From: Opitutaceae bacterium
GTDB lineage: Bacteria > Verrucomicrobiota > Verrucomicrobiia > Opitutales > Opitutaceae
DNA length: 40,920 bases
Direction: 5' to 3'
NCBI GenBank assembly: GCA_025360455.1
Contig: JANYCF010000233.1
Location: 1 to 40,920, forward strand
Notes under the pieces: model-generated
What the model was told of the DNA's origin: nothing
Seen by the model: the letters and a program-made list of their open reading frames with translations, nothing else
The model's database searches: none
Shown: positions 9,009 through 14,284 of the stretch, piece by piece
Layout: every line of letters begins with the position of its first letter
Numbering within the stretch: position 1 is the first letter of the stretch
Made by a program: the position numbers and the translations under genes

Positions 9009-9052
9009 CCTTGCCGAATGATCCGGCAATCGCATTGTGCGTCTACCCACCC

Positions 9053-9481
9053 ATGAAGAAATTGTTTCTACCCCTGTTGCTCGCTCTCGGAGTCATCACG
9101 CTTTTCAACGGCTGTTCCTCAGGCATGGACCGGATTGGTTTGCAGGTGCAGCTGGCTAAATTGGAAAGGAAAGCGGATGGGACAATTCTTGCTTCGCTGC
9201 TTTTCAGCAATCCCAGCGTGGGTGCTTTCAACGTCGTGTCCTCCACCCATATACTCGTGGTCAATGGGCACCCCGTCGGAGTATTGGATGTCGGGGTGCC
9301 ACTGGGCCTGCCGGCACAGACAACGGCCTTGGCTACGGCGACACTGAAGCGCACGGCCGGTGCCGGGGAGATTTCTGGTACCGTCTCCTATCAACTCACC
9401 TCGACCCTGCTGATGAGTATTTATGATGATAAAACTGAGCGCTATAAAACCAGTTCGGCGGGGACTGTCGTGGTTCAATAA
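9053..9481 (+). CDS. LEA14-like (WHy domain) lipoprotein
   Basis: From ATG 9053 the protein has 142 residues with a lipoprotein signal ending LFNGC (Cys21). The mature part has the immunoglobulin-like strand pattern of LEA type 2/WHy proteins: MDRIGLQVQLAKLERKADGTI, then LLFSNPSVGAFNVVSSTHILVVNG with the family's conserved Asn-Pro, then GVPLGLPAQTTA and alternating hydrophobics to the end. Bacterial homologues are usually lipoproteins linked to envelope or desiccation tolerance; no role can be proved here. In-frame residues upstream of 9053 lack a signal-like character. Confidence 0.72.
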   Translation: MKKLFLPLLLALGVITLFNGCSSGMDRIGLQVQLAKLERKADGTILASLLFSNPSVGAFNVVSSTHILVVNGHPVGVLDVGVPLGLPAQTTALATATLKRTAGAGEISGTVSYQLTSTLLMSIYDDKTERYKTSSAGTVVVQ

Positions 9482-9574
9482 AACTTTGCGGCCCGAGTTG
9501 CTTTCGTCGCCCCGGCGGATTGAGCGGCGTTCAGATCACAATTCGGGCCACAGTTGAATTTCGTTGGAGCGGGT

Positions 9575-9817
9575 TTAAGCGGCGCGTTGTAGTGTCGGCC
9601 GCATGGCGCATGAGACGGTCTTGCGCGCCGGCAAGAAGACAGGACGGCTCCTGGTCAAGGCCCGCGGTTGAGTGCGGTATTGTGCCATCGTCCAGGCGAC
9701 GAGCCCGGCAGAGAAGGCGATGGCGACGAAGGTGGCGGCGTCGATCAGGCGACCACTGGCGATAATGGCGGATCCAATAAGGACGGTGGTGAAGAGGGAG
9801 ACTAAGGATGTTTTCAT
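9575..9817 (-). CDS. small membrane protein, paralogue of its neighbour
   Basis: An 80-residue protein from ATG 9817: MKTSLVSLF, a hydrophobic segment (TTVLIGSAIIASG), a second one (AATFVAIAFSAGLVAWTMAQY), then a basic tail with T-R-S/A-R-P and PxRK. It aligns along most of its length with the product of 9895-10131: MK(T)SL at the start, a shared GLxAWTxxQY at the end of helix 2, and LTR(S/A)RPxxLP in the tail. No function is known to me. No Shine-Dalgarno sequence is visible upstream. Confidence 0.55.
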   Translation of the reverse strand: MKTSLVSLFTTVLIGSAIIASGRLIDAATFVAIAFSAGLVAWTMAQYRTQPRALTRSRPVFLPARKTVSCAMRPTLQRAA

Positions 9818-9894
9818 GGTTGGAGGCTTGTTTATGGGAAGAACCCAACGTTGCGCGAAAAGTTGCAGCATTTTTTACGGCGCAAAATATGGCC

Positions 9895-10131
9895 TCACGC
9901 CGCGAGCCTTCGCGGCGGTGCCTGGCGAGCAGCGCGCACCGGAAGTCGGAGCGGACGCGCCCGAGTAAGCGGAAAATATTTCCGCTCGTACTGCCGGTTG
10001 GTCCACGCGATGAGGCCGGCCGCGAATACACAGGCCAAGATGAGGGCAATGTCGGGACTTTGGCCGTTGGTGAAATGCGCGCAGATCAGAAGAGTGGCGA
10101 GTGCGAGGGAAAATGTGATGAGTGATTTCAT
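9895..10131 (-). CDS. small membrane protein, paralogue of its neighbour
   Basis: A 78-residue protein from ATG 10131: MKSLITFSLALATLLIC, then SPDIALILACVFAAGLIAWTNRQY, then a basic tail PLTRARPLRLPVRAARQ. It is the upstream member of a tandem pair with 9575-9817, about 80 bp apart, pointing to a local duplication followed by divergence. Two hairpin-forming helices and a cationic tail suggest an inner-membrane location. The 204-bp region upstream (10132-10335) holds an imperfect inverted repeat (gtgacgaaa / tttgtcac, about 10192-10220) but no gene. Confidence 0.55.
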   Translation of the reverse strand: MKSLITFSLALATLLICAHFTNGQSPDIALILACVFAAGLIAWTNRQYERKYFPLTRARPLRLPVRAARQAPPRRLAA

Positions 10132-10335
10132 GTTCGTGTTTTGGTTGGAGCCCACAATACACCCGATTGGCCGCAATAGTTCCCGCAGCCTGTGACGAAA
10201 TAGAAAACAAAATGTTTGTCACCGGATCGTGACGGAATCGTTGCCGCAAAGTAGCGGAGCGCGCGCCGGCGGTACGAGAAAACCCGTCCGGAGGCCACGT
10301 TCCACTCAAGTCAACGGACAACAATATTGATCAGA

Positions 10336-11328
10336 TCAGAACAGAGCGTTGGCGGCGACGCCGACGGCGGTGATCGGGCCGGAGTCGCCCAAGGCGTCGA
10401 TCGCTTTATCGGCTTTTTTCACGACGCCTTGCACATCTTTATAGAGCTGATCGTCGGCGAGTAATTTGCCGAGCGTGCCTTGGCCGCTGTTTAGTTTCGT
10501 CGTGAGCTCGCGAATATTGGCGACGGTGAGCTTGAGATTATCGGCGGTGGCGGGATCGTAGAGTAACGTGCCGATGGCACCGTGGCCGCTCTTCACGTCG
10601 GTGATGATGCCCTGGGCATTGGTGACGAAGAGGCGGGTGTCGGCGGCGGCGAGTTTGATCTCGGCGACCGAGGCGAGCAATTCATCGTGGAGTTTGGGAT
10701 CGTTAACGAGTCGGCCGAGGGTGCCTTCGCTGCCGCGTAATTTTTCGGTGATGGCTTGGAGATTGGCGATGGTTTCGGTGAGTTTCGGGCCGTTGGCATC
10801 GACGAGATGATCGAGCTTGGTGAAGAGCGAAGCGGAGCCGCCTTCGCCTCCGCCCATGGCTTTGCTGACGCCGTCGGCAACTTGCTCCAGCTTGGCTCCG
10901 AGGGAACCGAGTTGGGAAATAACTTCGTTCATATCTACGGTGGCTTTGGTTTTAATCTCGGCTCCGTCCTGCAGCAAGGTGCTGGCTTTGCCGAAGCTGA
11001 CCGCGAGGTGCTGGCTGCCGAGGAGACTGGAGGTCTCAACGCTCGCGACGGCATCGGTGGGGATTTGCACCGTGGGGTCGATGGCCAGCAAGGCTTCCAC
11101 GCGTTCGCGGCCGAGGCGGGTGGTGCTGACCGTGCCGATTTTTACGCCGGCCATCTGGACTTCGTCGCCGGTTTTCAGGCCTTTGAGATTCCCGAAGGGG
11201 GCGACCAAGGTGTAGCCCTTTTTCTTGAAGATTTGGCCGCCACTGAGCGACTCAAAGGTGATCCAGGCAAGCGCGAGACCGAGGATAAAAAACAGTCCGA
11301 CGCGAATGGTGTTGTTACGATTATTCAT
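10336..11328 (-). CDS. mlaD: MlaD-type MCE-domain substrate-binding protein
   Basis: From ATG 11328 the protein has 330 residues. It starts MNNRNNTIRVGLFFILGLALAW, a single N-terminal anchor helix, followed by the MCE domain (about 35-115: GYTLVAPFGNLKGLKTGDEVQMAGVKIG and onward), which forms rings that shuttle phospholipids between membranes. The C-terminal half is helical and contains three copies of a G-[TA]-[LI]-G-x-L-x-x-D-x-x-L motif, common in long MCE proteins that build a tunnel. The start overlaps the 3' end of mlaF by 8 bp. Last gene of the four-gene operon 14284-10336. Confidence 0.9.
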   Translation of the reverse strand: MNNRNNTIRVGLFFILGLALAWITFESLSGGQIFKKKGYTLVAPFGNLKGLKTGDEVQMAGVKIGTVSTTRLGRERVEALLAIDPTVQIPTDAVASVETSSLLGSQHLAVSFGKASTLLQDGAEIKTKATVDMNEVISQLGSLGAKLEQVADGVSKAMGGGEGGSASLFTKLDHLVDANGPKLTETIANLQAITEKLRGSEGTLGRLVNDPKLHDELLASVAEIKLAAADTRLFVTNAQGIITDVKSGHGAIGTLLYDPATADNLKLTVANIRELTTKLNSGQGTLGKLLADDQLYKDVQGVVKKADKAIDALGDSGPITAVGVAANALF

Positions 11329-12121
11329 GGGTGGGCTCCAGTTGTTTAAAACGGGGATGCTTGAGATTGATGATGGGATTGAAGAAATTAATGATGGCGG
11401 GATCTGTTGGGGGCATGAAATCGGCGGGCTGGCCGATCGCACGGATACGACCGTCCATGATGACGGCGATACGGTCCGCGATGTTGAGCGCCAGAGTGCG
11501 GTCGTGGGTGACAACGATGCTGGTGACGGCGGTTTGCTCCCGGAGGGTGGCGATGATTTCGCAGATGGTGGCGCTCATCACCGGGTCGAGTTCGGAGGTG
11601 GGCTCATCGTAGAGGTAGAGCTGGGGTTCCATCACGAGGGAGCGGGCAATGGCGACGCGTTTTTTCATGCCGCCGGAAAGTTCCGAAGGGAATTTTTTGT
11701 GGGCGTTCTCGAGAGAGAGAATGGTGAGGGCGTGCATGACGCGCTCGCGGATGCCCGTTTCATTGTAGAGGCGATGCTCGCGGAGATAGAGGGCGAGATT
11801 ATCGTAGACGGAGAGAGAGTTGAAAAGCGCACCGGCCTGGAAAACGAGGGCGAGGCGGATTTTCGCACGGGTGGCGGGATCGGCGGCGTCGAACTGGCCG
11901 AGGCGGACTTCGCCGCTGGTGGCTTGTTCGAGCCCGGCGATGTGTTTGAGGAGAACGCTTTTTCCCGAACCGCTGGGGCCCATGAGGACAAAAGTTTCGC
12001 CGGGTTTGACCTCGAAGCTGATGTCTTGCAGCACGGTGCTGGAGCCAAACTTTTTTGTCAGGCGAGAGACGGTGACGCCGACAGTTTTGTCCGCTACCGG
12101 AGAGGGGGAAGGTGTGCTCAT
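11321..12121 (-). CDS. mlaF: MlaF-type ABC transporter ATPase
   Basis: A 266-residue ATPase with Walker A GPSGSGKS, Q-loop VFQAGALFNSLSV, ABC signature LSGGMKKRVAIAR (the GGM variant typical of MlaF/Mkl), Walker B LYLYDEPTSELDP and the H-loop VVTHD. It drives lipid transport through MlaE with MlaD. The GGMKKR signature and the position between mlaE (7-bp gap) and mlaD (8-bp overlap) make the assignment firm. The C-terminal extension FFNPIINLKHPRFKQLEPTHE could contact its partner across the dimer, as MlaF tails do in Escherichia coli. No MlaB-like STAS gene is present. Confidence 0.95.
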   Translation of the reverse strand: MSTPSPSPVADKTVGVTVSRLTKKFGSSTVLQDISFEVKPGETFVLMGPSGSGKSVLLKHIAGLEQATSGEVRLGQFDAADPATRAKIRLALVFQAGALFNSLSVYDNLALYLREHRLYNETGIRERVMHALTILSLENAHKKFPSELSGGMKKRVAIARSLVMEPQLYLYDEPTSELDPVMSATICEIIATLREQTAVTSIVVTHDRTLALNIADRIAVIMDGRIRAIGQPADFMPPTDPAIINFFNPIINLKHPRFKQLEPTHE

Positions 12122-12128
12122 GGCGTGA

Positions 12129-12881
12129 TTAGATCAGAGCTTTGGTCACGAAGTAATCGAGGACCAGAATAAGAATGAGGGAGGTGACGACGGCTTTGGT
12201 GACGGAGGCGCCGATCTCGCGCGGACCGCCACGGGTGTTCAGGCCGATGTAGCAGCAGACGAGTACAATGACGAAGCCGAAGAATTCAGCTTTGAGGAGT
12301 CCGTCGGTGATATCCTTCCAATCCATGTAGCGTTTCAAGGCGGCGAAGTAGGTTTCGCTGTCGATCGAGATGAAGTGCGTGTATTGGCAAATGAGGGCGC
12401 CGCCATACCAGCCGCAGATGATGCCGATGAGGGTGAGGACGGGCATCATCACGAAAATGGCGGCGAGGCGGGGCAGCACCAGGATGCGCTCGGGAGGGAT
12501 GTTCATGGTGATGAGCGCATCGACTTCCTGGTAAACTTTCATGGAGGCGAGTTCGGCGGTGATAGCGGAGCCGACGCGACCCGCAATGAGGATGGCGACC
12601 ATGACGGGGCCGAGTTCACGGGAGACGGAGAGGCCGACCAGGGAGCCGATGAACTGTTTGGCGCCGAAGTTTTCCATGCTGTAACCGCTTTGGAGGGCGA
12701 GCACGCTCCCGATGAAAAAGGTGAGAATGGTGACGATCGGCAGCGAGTTGTAGCCGATGAGATAACATTGTTCGATGAACCGCGGAAATTGGTAGCGGAG
12801 CGTGGGGGCGTAGCCGAGGGAGCGCAGGAGCAGCAGCACGACGCCGCCGATGTGCTCAAAAACTGCAGTGAGTGGTTTCAT
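12129..12881 (-). CDS. mlaE: MlaE-type ABC transporter permease
   Basis: A 250-residue integral membrane protein of the MlaE/YrbE family: an amphipathic N-terminus (VFEHIGGVVLLLLRSLGY), the PRFIEQCYLIGYNSLPIVTILTFFIG segment, SRELGPVMVAILIAGRVGSAITAELASM (the most conserved motif of the family), then MPVLTLIGIICGWYGGAL and a terminal pair of helices. Two copies with two MlaF and a ring of MlaD would form the inner-membrane lipid transporter. Its ATG overlaps the TGA of the preceding WPL-repeat gene (ATGA, 12881-12878), so translation is probably coupled. Confidence 0.95.
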   Translation of the reverse strand: MKPLTAVFEHIGGVVLLLLRSLGYAPTLRYQFPRFIEQCYLIGYNSLPIVTILTFFIGSVLALQSGYSMENFGAKQFIGSLVGLSVSRELGPVMVAILIAGRVGSAITAELASMKVYQEVDALITMNIPPERILVLPRLAAIFVMMPVLTLIGIICGWYGGALICQYTHFISIDSETYFAALKRYMDWKDITDGLLKAEFFGFVIVLVCCYIGLNTRGGPREIGASVTKAVVTSLILILVLDYFVTKALI

Positions 12882-14284
12882 GGTGTGGAAGGCACGGGAG
12901 CCGGTTTAGCAGATTGGGTGCGGGAAGCGAAGAAGAAGAACTTGCCGCGCGGAGCCTCTGCATCGCGACGCCAGCCGAGGGGGCCGAAGTGAAATTCTTT
13001 TTCCGCAGGAGAGTTTTTCCAGCTGAGGAGGTTCCAGAGCAAGGAGTGGCGGGTATCACCCGGGGCGCGTTGGTCGAAACGATAGACGGCGAAAAGGGGA
13101 GTGTAGAGTTGGCGAATGGGATCGTTATGCGGGAAGAAAATTTCCAGCGGGCTGAGCAGCTGGGTCTGGCGGAGGCCGGCGCCGTTGTCCCACACGGAGA
13201 GCAGTGGCCAGAGATGGCGTTTGTAGGCGGGTGCGGCCGCAGGATTGGTCAGGCTGCGCTGTTCCATCGAGGAGTAGAGGAAGAAGAGCAGGGAGTTTTT
13301 TTCCTGAGCGAGGCCATCGGCGGACCAACGATCTTGGCGGAAAAGCGGCCAGAGCAACCAAGTCTTATCGTGGCCTTTGATGTTGGAGTGGGTGTAGAGA
13401 GGCGCGAAGCGATTGACATAGTGATTTTCGCCCCGGCCTTGGACAAGGAGGGGCCAAAGGTAGCGGGTCTCGTCGTATTTCGCCGGTGCAGTGCGATGGG
13501 TGTAGCCGAAGAATGGCCATACGTAGGTTTCGCTTTGATAACCCGGACCGCTGTCGCGCGCGTAGAAGGGGAGCACGCCGAGTTTCACGTCGGGCTCTGG
13601 TTCGGAGAGATTTTTCTCCTGTTTATAGATGAGCGGCCAGAGATAAAACTGATTGTGGTAGTCGCCTGGGTGTTCGCGTGAACCGAAGAGAGGCCAGAAT
13701 TCGAAACCGTGGTGGCCGGCACCTTGGATCACGCGGATTAAGGGCCAGGGCGCGGAGGTAATCTGCATTCCACTCTTGTCGGTGTTGAAATACAGCGGAA
13801 ATAAACCCCAGGTGAGGCGATCTTTGCCGAAACGATTCTTGATGGTGCCGGCGAGGGGGAACAGGGCGTGATAGCTGGTGGCGGGGTCACCGGTCTCGCG
13901 GGAAAAATAGAACGGCCACACATCGAAGCGCTGGGTGGATTCGCCGGTCGAAGCCGTGTCGCGGCTATGGTTGATGAGCTGGAAAAAGGTGAAAGAGGTG
14001 CTCGCGCCATCACGCTGCCAGGAGAAGAAGGGATAGAGAAAATGTGTCGTTGTCTTGTCTCCTGCGGTGAGGCGGTACCATAACGGTCGGAAAATCTGCT
14101 GCGTGCTGCCATCTGGGTTGATCTGGCCGGTGTAGAGTGGGCCGAGGATTTGCCGAGCAGTGATTTGTCCCGTAACCGGATCTTCCTGGCCGATCCAAAA
14201 GGGCCACGCGCTGCGCTCCGTCGCGCTAGCCGAAGAGGCTAGCGCGACAGTGAAGAGCAGCCAGAGAGAGAATCGGAAACTCAT
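12878..14284 (-). CDS. uncharacterised secreted protein with about 15 WPL/WPF repeats, coupled to mlaE
   Basis: I do not know a named family for this 468-residue protein. It has a signal peptide (MSFRFSLWLLFTVALASSASA) and then a long chain of similar units in which an aromatic strand ends in W-P-[LF] or close variants: SAWPFW, FRPLW, LYPFF, VWPFYF, LFPLAG, LFPLYF, PWPLIR, FWPLFG, LWPLIY, VLPFYA, VWPFFG, LWPLLV, FAPLYT, LWPLFR, LWPLLS, LSPLEI, YTPLFA. The spacing is roughly 18-35 residues with polar turns. This argues for a repetitive beta structure (barrel, propeller or beta sheet array) in the periplasm or outer membrane. It is the first gene of the operon with mlaE, mlaF and mlaD and overlaps mlaE by 4 bp, so a role in the same lipid route is a reasonable inference. 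Confidence 0.8.
   Translation of the reverse strand: MSFRFSLWLLFTVALASSASATERSAWPFWIGQEDPVTGQITARQILGPLYTGQINPDGSTQQIFRPLWYRLTAGDKTTTHFLYPFFSWQRDGASTSFTFFQLINHSRDTASTGESTQRFDVWPFYFSRETGDPATSYHALFPLAGTIKNRFGKDRLTWGLFPLYFNTDKSGMQITSAPWPLIRVIQGAGHHGFEFWPLFGSREHPGDYHNQFYLWPLIYKQEKNLSEPEPDVKLGVLPFYARDSGPGYQSETYVWPFFGYTHRTAPAKYDETRYLWPLLVQGRGENHYVNRFAPLYTHSNIKGHDKTWLLWPLFRQDRWSADGLAQEKNSLLFFLYSSMEQRSLTNPAAAPAYKRHLWPLLSVWDNGAGLRQTQLLSPLEIFFPHNDPIRQLYTPLFAVYRFDQRAPGDTRHSLLWNLLSWKNSPAEKEFHFGPLGWRRDAEAPRGKFFFFASRTQSAKPAPVPSTP
14220..14248. repeat. perfect 12-bp-arm palindrome inside the signal-peptide codons
   Basis: GTCGCGCTAGCC (14220-14231), a five-base loop (gaaga) and GGCTAGCGCGAC (14237-14248) form a perfect hairpin. 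On the minus strand it is in frame and encodes VALASSASAT, the C-region and likely cleavage site of the WPL protein's signal peptide. The mRNA would fold into this stem about 35 bases after the start codon, which could affect translation of the whole Mla operon. Confidence 0.9.

Follow-up and report, generated by a model that had tools for sequence, protein, structure and literature searches.

The first gene of a four-gene operon on the minus strand of the window (the whole stretch of DNA that was analysed, 40,920 nt from an Opitutaceae bacterium; assembly GCA_025360455.1, contig JANYCF010000233.1) encodes a 468-amino acid (aa) protein built of short repeated units with W-P-L corners, referred to here as the WPL protein. 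The WPL gene is strongly linked to mlaE, and the WPL protein probably serves a distinct MlaEFD transporter as its partner on the outer-membrane side, where it would stand in for both MlaC and MlaA. A place at the outer-membrane side was proposed because the protein is a nearly constant partner of one MlaEFD type and has an export-like start, because most genomes that have it lack MlaC and MlaA, and because the accompanying MlaD is long.

The genes follow one another in the order WPL gene (12878–14284), mlaE (12129–12881), mlaF (11321–12121) and mlaD (10336–11331). An earlier note on this DNA, made from the letters alone and called the original prediction below, had placed the WPL gene first in an mlaE-mlaF-mlaD operon with its stop overlapping the mlaE start; this was confirmed, the two genes sharing the four bases ATGA (12878–12881). 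The mlaE product matched PF02405 (E 1.7e-75) and scored above the cut-off of the NCBIfam permease model TIGR00056 (227.7 versus 212.2 bits), and scores and a tree assigned it to a WPL-associated subtype. The mlaF product matched ABC_tran (E 1.5e-32) and reached 149.5 bits with the E. coli MlaF model PRK11831, under its cut-off of 441; judged from its sequence, it is best described as an ABC ATPase beside mlaE and not as an MlaF equivalog. An MCE domain was detected in the mlaD product (PF02470, E 2.6e-16; 60.1 bits, cut-off 25.1), which at 331 aa is a long form of MlaD.

A scan of a genome collection gave 130 loci encoding a WPL relative, of which the best 80 were kept. In all 80, mlaE lay downstream on the same strand; the gap between the two genes was −4 in 31 loci and +1 in 38 (69 together), was within −4 to +4 in 74 and was at most 123. 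The titles of these 80 loci were all Verrucomicrobiota save one that read just 'bacterium', the chromosomes of other phyla being covered by this one pattern scan. In loci from relatives, mlaE adjoined the WPL gene in 28 of 29. The WPL protein itself was present in 35 of 57 relative genomes (own genome included), in 77 of 286 genomes of the class and in 125 of 288 genomes of the phylum, where matches outside the class were mostly partial and reached up to 164 bits. Three phylum matches were weak (G228, G450 and G507), and leaving out G228 (21.9 bits in an 825-aa frame, with no profile match in the fetched locus L171) reduced the class count to 76. Twenty of the 77 class matches were hand-picked away from the nearest families; 19 of these gave a profile match, and mlaE, mlaF and mlaD followed the WPL gene in 16. 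The four-gene order was also found in 17 of 20 loci hand-picked from the 98 matches outside the class, with one further locus ending at a contig edge and two unlinked.

The score against the window MlaE split the class genomes into 76 that reached at least approximately 198 bits and others that did not exceed 165 bits, and the 76 genomes with this MlaE subtype were identical to the 76 with the WPL protein (G228 left out). Co-occurrence with mlaE, which the original prediction had put forward as a check, was therefore complete for the subtype in the class. The two genes were linked in 68 of the 76, with mlaE no more than 2.5 kb downstream and on the same strand; most were adjacent and four gaps measured 0.8–1.5 kb. 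Homologues lying mostly away from mla genes had been named as the outcome that would count against the prediction, and these figures, with the 80 of 80 among the best loci, show the opposite. In the remaining eight genomes both genes were present but apart, by approximately 577 kb in one single-contig genome; the separation can be read in seven from the contig room beside one gene, and the coordinates of the eighth (G235) do not show it. Two genomes of the order (G044 and G048) likewise kept both genes unlinked. Among the 57 relatives, the subtype was found in 34 of the 35 genomes with the WPL protein and in none without it.

A tree of 66 MlaE rows, in which 16 of the 80 scanned loci were sampled, united the WPL-linked MlaE of the order with those of the rest of the class (support 100/99) and set the MlaE of MlaC/MlaA operons apart from them (100/100). 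This grouping indicates that the MlaE of a close relative belongs to either of two lineages, and that the partners differ between the lineages. Rows from outside the class formed a group of their own on long branches, where joins may be false, and single descent of all WPL-linked MlaE was not borne out. A second set in the own genome (contig C144; L197:4844-9243) comprises MlaE, MlaF and MCE proteins and an ABC_trans_aux lipoprotein, and its MlaE is approximately 37 % identical to that of the window. Since relatives without the WPL protein also have MlaE matches at 30–40 % identity, this set does not appear to be tied to the WPL protein.

No match to PF05494 (MlaC) or to PF04333 (MlaA) was found in the own genome assembly (92.9 % complete), which extends to the assembly the absence of mlaC and mlaA that the original prediction had noted for the window. 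The 57 relatives comprised 34 genomes with the WPL protein only, 12 with MlaA and MlaC only, one with all three and 10 with neither. MlaA was thus found in 13 relatives, and exactly these 13 also gave clear MlaC matches (at least 99 bits). Another six rows for MlaC were short and scored 28 bits or less. In the sole relative with all three (G036), the WPL gene and the MlaC/MlaA operon were on separate contigs. Twelve of the 13 MlaC/MlaA places were fetched: 11 held an operon with MlaE, MlaF and a short MlaD, and the twelfth (G040) had no MlaE, MlaF or MlaD nearby. In the phylum sample (288 genomes), 111 had the WPL protein only, 99 MlaA only, 14 both and 64 neither (110, 101, 12 and 65, respectively, without the three weak WPL matches). 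The negative relation between the two held for short and long MlaA frames alike, with seven of each among the 14 genomes with both; MlaA frames of at least 600 aa were present in seven WPL genomes and in 66 others.

The two kinds of operon also differed in their MlaD. Complete MlaD proteins in WPL systems measured 264–464 aa (110 genes), with no overlap with the 150–163 aa of the 11 MlaC/MlaA operons; the ranges were 328–342 aa in 75 scanned loci, 317–464 aa in 16 class loci, 264–370 aa in 17 loci outside the class and 331–337 aa in two unlinked cases. The window MlaD was modelled with a transmembrane helix (residues 4–30), the MCE domain and then approximately 200 mostly helical residues (134 to 330). 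Mean confidence (predicted local distance difference test, pLDDT) was 69 and was low past approximately residue 150; no C-terminal barrel was predicted, a result that shares the low confidence of the helical part.

The repeats of the WPL protein were compared with 5000 shuffles of its sequence. Exact WP[LF] occurred nine times (shuffle mean 0.32, maximum 4), [WFYL]P[LF] 13 times (mean 1.99, maximum 9) and xP[LF] corners 19 times (mean 7.24, maximum 16), and a chance origin was ruled out. The corners are spaced 17–22 residues apart save for three gaps of 39, 47 and 39 residues, where degenerate corners sit (FQL, LFFL and LWNL, one per gap, read from the strand list and motif positions); the number of units was therefore put at approximately 22. 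The original prediction of 15–17 units ending in W-P-[LF] was right as to the type of repeat, but no more than nine units carry the exact motif. When the members of a 68-sequence alignment were centred on the corner proline, position −2 was aliphatic or Phe (L 40 %), −1 mostly W (48 %), +1 L (51 %) or F (34 %) and +2 mostly F or Y (51 %), with the chain polar from approximately five residues outward. This pattern gives the units a hydrophobic midline and polar edges. The protein has no cysteine, and its hydrophobic N-terminus is signal-peptide-like, as originally proposed, to judge from the sequence and from a helix at residues 4–15 of the model.

The model built from these 68 sequences (mean pLDDT 90.5; predicted template-modelling score, pTM, 0.76) was all-beta, the exceptions being the signal helix and a pair of short helices near residues 380–394, in agreement with the beta-rich aromatic repeat protein originally envisaged. 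Its 43 strands of 4–8 residues follow the pattern strand, WPL corner, strand, turn. A fold search of the PDB gave two matches at E 0.001 or better. Among the 50 of 496 matches listed, none was global (template-modelling score normalized to the query, query TM, 0.19 or less), and local likeness was seen to ciliary C1 central-pair chains, OspA sheets, a TCP10 domain and teneurin/RHS proteins. A viral library gave query TM of 0.20 or less among the 50 matches listed, with local likeness to MORN-repeat proteins. A porin-like barrel, a propeller or an enzyme fold was rejected on the fold-search rows listed (query TM ≤0.20); an unrelated enzyme fold, the second outcome named as counting against the original prediction, was absent from the PDB matches listed.

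Sequence searches gave the WPL protein no known family. Neither Pfam nor NCBIfam gave a row for it at E up to 1, and PF05494 (MlaC) was accordingly not matched. The 68 aligned homologues gave just three single weak Pfam rows with unrelated names (E 0.026–0.043), and nine distant members matched Pfam once (E 0.19) and NCBIfam not at all; none of these proteins had a MORN row in Pfam. PHROGs gave no match for two WPL proteins, a plasmid search with one homologue gave none, and against the PDB sequences the single protein found one antibody row (E 0.62) and the profile found nothing at E up to 1. Identity with a known family was ruled out by the Pfam, NCBIfam, PHROGs and PDB sequence searches. 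No description of the WPL protein was found among the literature matches listed, as far as titles and the beginnings of abstracts go, and a term search in PMC12283558, on essential genes of Verrucomicrobium spinosum, gave no mla or MCE.

We infer the location of the WPL protein, its contacts with lipid and with MlaD, and the direction of transport. The protein would be exported by its signal peptide and would fold as a long antiparallel beta-meander with strands bent at each W-P-L corner. Together with the long helical MlaD it would take over from MlaC, the carrier, and MlaA, the lipoprotein. The aliphatic and aromatic residues along the midline of the meander may cover the acyl chains of lipids or attach to the outer membrane, which would let lipid pass between MlaD and the outer membrane. 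The protein may act as the bridge, outer-membrane acceptor or lipid slide that the original prediction suggested. A wider proposal is more tentative: Verrucomicrobiota may have an Mla architecture of their own, with a long MlaD and a WPL protein of new fold making up the whole intermembrane path and the meander as the lipid-lined outer part of that path. Under this proposal the WPL and MlaC/MlaA sets would be interchangeable, since close relatives have one or the other.

Several observations weigh against a partner that replaces MlaC and MlaA. MlaA was found in 67 of the 286 class genomes, and together with the WPL protein in 11. The open frame that held MlaA measured at least 600 aa in nine of these 11. 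Four of the nine were read (G287, G103, G324 and G213), together with G176, which lacks the WPL protein; their long MlaA proteins (L218, L219, L220, L221 and L222) measured 634–769 aa and, by eye, continued after the MlaA domain into an alpha/beta hydrolase-like part, although only MlaA scored when one of them was searched against Pfam. No match to the window mla genes was found in the 6–8 kb around these five. MlaA frames under 600 aa overlapped with the WPL protein in two of the 286 genomes: no mla gene was found in the 12 kb read around the MlaA of G270, and the MlaA frame of G255 contains a stop. The long frames of the class sample occurred with the WPL protein more often than without it (nine genomes versus five; 9/14), unlike in the phylum sample, and six of the 13 genomes outside the class with both proteins had a short MlaA frame. 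One WPL genome (G008) gave an MlaC row of 27.9 bits, above the curated cut-off, at positions 28–82 of a 670-aa frame, and a 64 % complete genome (G050) had a piece of the WPL gene at a contig start without the MlaE subtype. The genomes are related, so that the counts overstate independence, and no p-values were leaned on. A lipobox pattern was found in four of 20 homologues outside the class (a lower bound, as the pattern missed the start of L182) and in one of 19 class homologues; as it is rare, lipid anchoring does not appear to be general. Finally, the hydrophobic midline could be a folding core only.

It is unlikely, if conceivable, that the WPL protein is a periplasmic subunit for assembly, stability or gating that never carries lipid, with the long MlaD alone spanning the gap. 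Such a role would fit the same 76 of 76 co-occurrence, the tight coupling to mlaE and the approximately 200 mostly helical MlaD residues after the MCE domain, and passages of PMC10665443 argue that a long MlaD can bridge alone. The same source, in the passages concerned, reports that PVC (Planctomycetes–Verrucomicrobia–Chlamydiae) bacteria lack the MlaD barrel, which would leave the outer-membrane end still missing. Moreover, the large repeat architecture would seem to exceed what a small accessory subunit needs.

An outer-membrane beta-barrel of approximately 22 strands, analogous to TGD4 or LptD, is improbable. The strand list does give approximately 22 meander strands with both termini on one side and somewhat longer loops on one side, but the DSSP strands break at the central proline, the aromatic residues lie at the midline instead of in two girdles, and porin, VDAC and LptD-containing chains reached query TM of only 0.08–0.11 among the PDB matches listed. 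The fold search disfavours a porin-like barrel. That the protein is an exported structural protein merely co-transcribed with mlaE and unrelated to lipid transport is very improbable: its local likeness is to OspA and similar beta-meander proteins, a kind that can have a structural role, but it co-occurs with one MlaE subtype in 76 of 76 genomes even when the genes are apart, and the operon persists in other families and beyond the class.

Some further features of the WPL homologues and of the window were recorded. In G022 (L029:1333-3543) the WPL protein and MlaE share one open frame in which the WPL part is without roughly its last 70 residues; this may have arisen by natural fusion, by deletion or through faulty assembly. 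At G011:C1:188-1351, in one of the 35 relatives counted as having the WPL protein, the WPL matches are interrupted by several stops and a partial MlaE is found elsewhere, in keeping with a decayed copy or a poor assembly. The start of the homologue at L182:6021-7430 (TSGC) resembles a lipobox by eye. L177, L185, L191 and further loci from outside the class share a conserved C-terminal segment of the LLKGLIGY type, after which come R-x-G and a hydrophobic stretch (RLLYF). In the window, two small open reading frames (ORFs) directly after mlaD (9531–10176, minus strand) appear by eye to be tandem relatives of each other, both with an AGLIAWT motif and then a basic tail, and a 156-aa lipoprotein-like ORF (GCSSG) without a Pfam match lies at 9011–9481.

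The WPL family matched none of the Pfam and NCBIfam models searched, and the PDB matches listed for its predicted fold include no global one; it is a concrete, testable candidate for an outer-membrane replacement in Verrucomicrobiota. Passages of PMC10665443 ask whether non-homologous proteins take the place of outer-membrane components that are missing, and describe in Veillonella parvula a minimal MlaEFD without MlaA and MlaC and a long MlaD with an extended helical part. The window system resembles it in both respects; the V. parvula MlaD, however, ends in its own ten-strand barrel, whereas none was predicted here, and no WPL-like partner appears in those passages. Compared with the canonical Mla system (MlaFEDB-C-A), the window has homologues of MlaE, MlaF and MlaD, but the genome has no MlaC or MlaA match, an extra beta protein of exported type is present and MlaD is approximately twice as long. 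OspA, TCP10, teneurin/RHS and MORN proteins share with the WPL protein the local geometry of antiparallel hairpins and differ in that the WPL protein has no Pfam match and reaches query TM of 0.20 or less among the matches listed. In chloroplasts, the TGD1-2-3 complex, an inner complex like MlaE/F/D, works with TGD4, a separate beta-rich partner in the outer envelope. The TGD system may be a parallel in architecture; TGD4 is a barrel, whereas the WPL protein is probably not.

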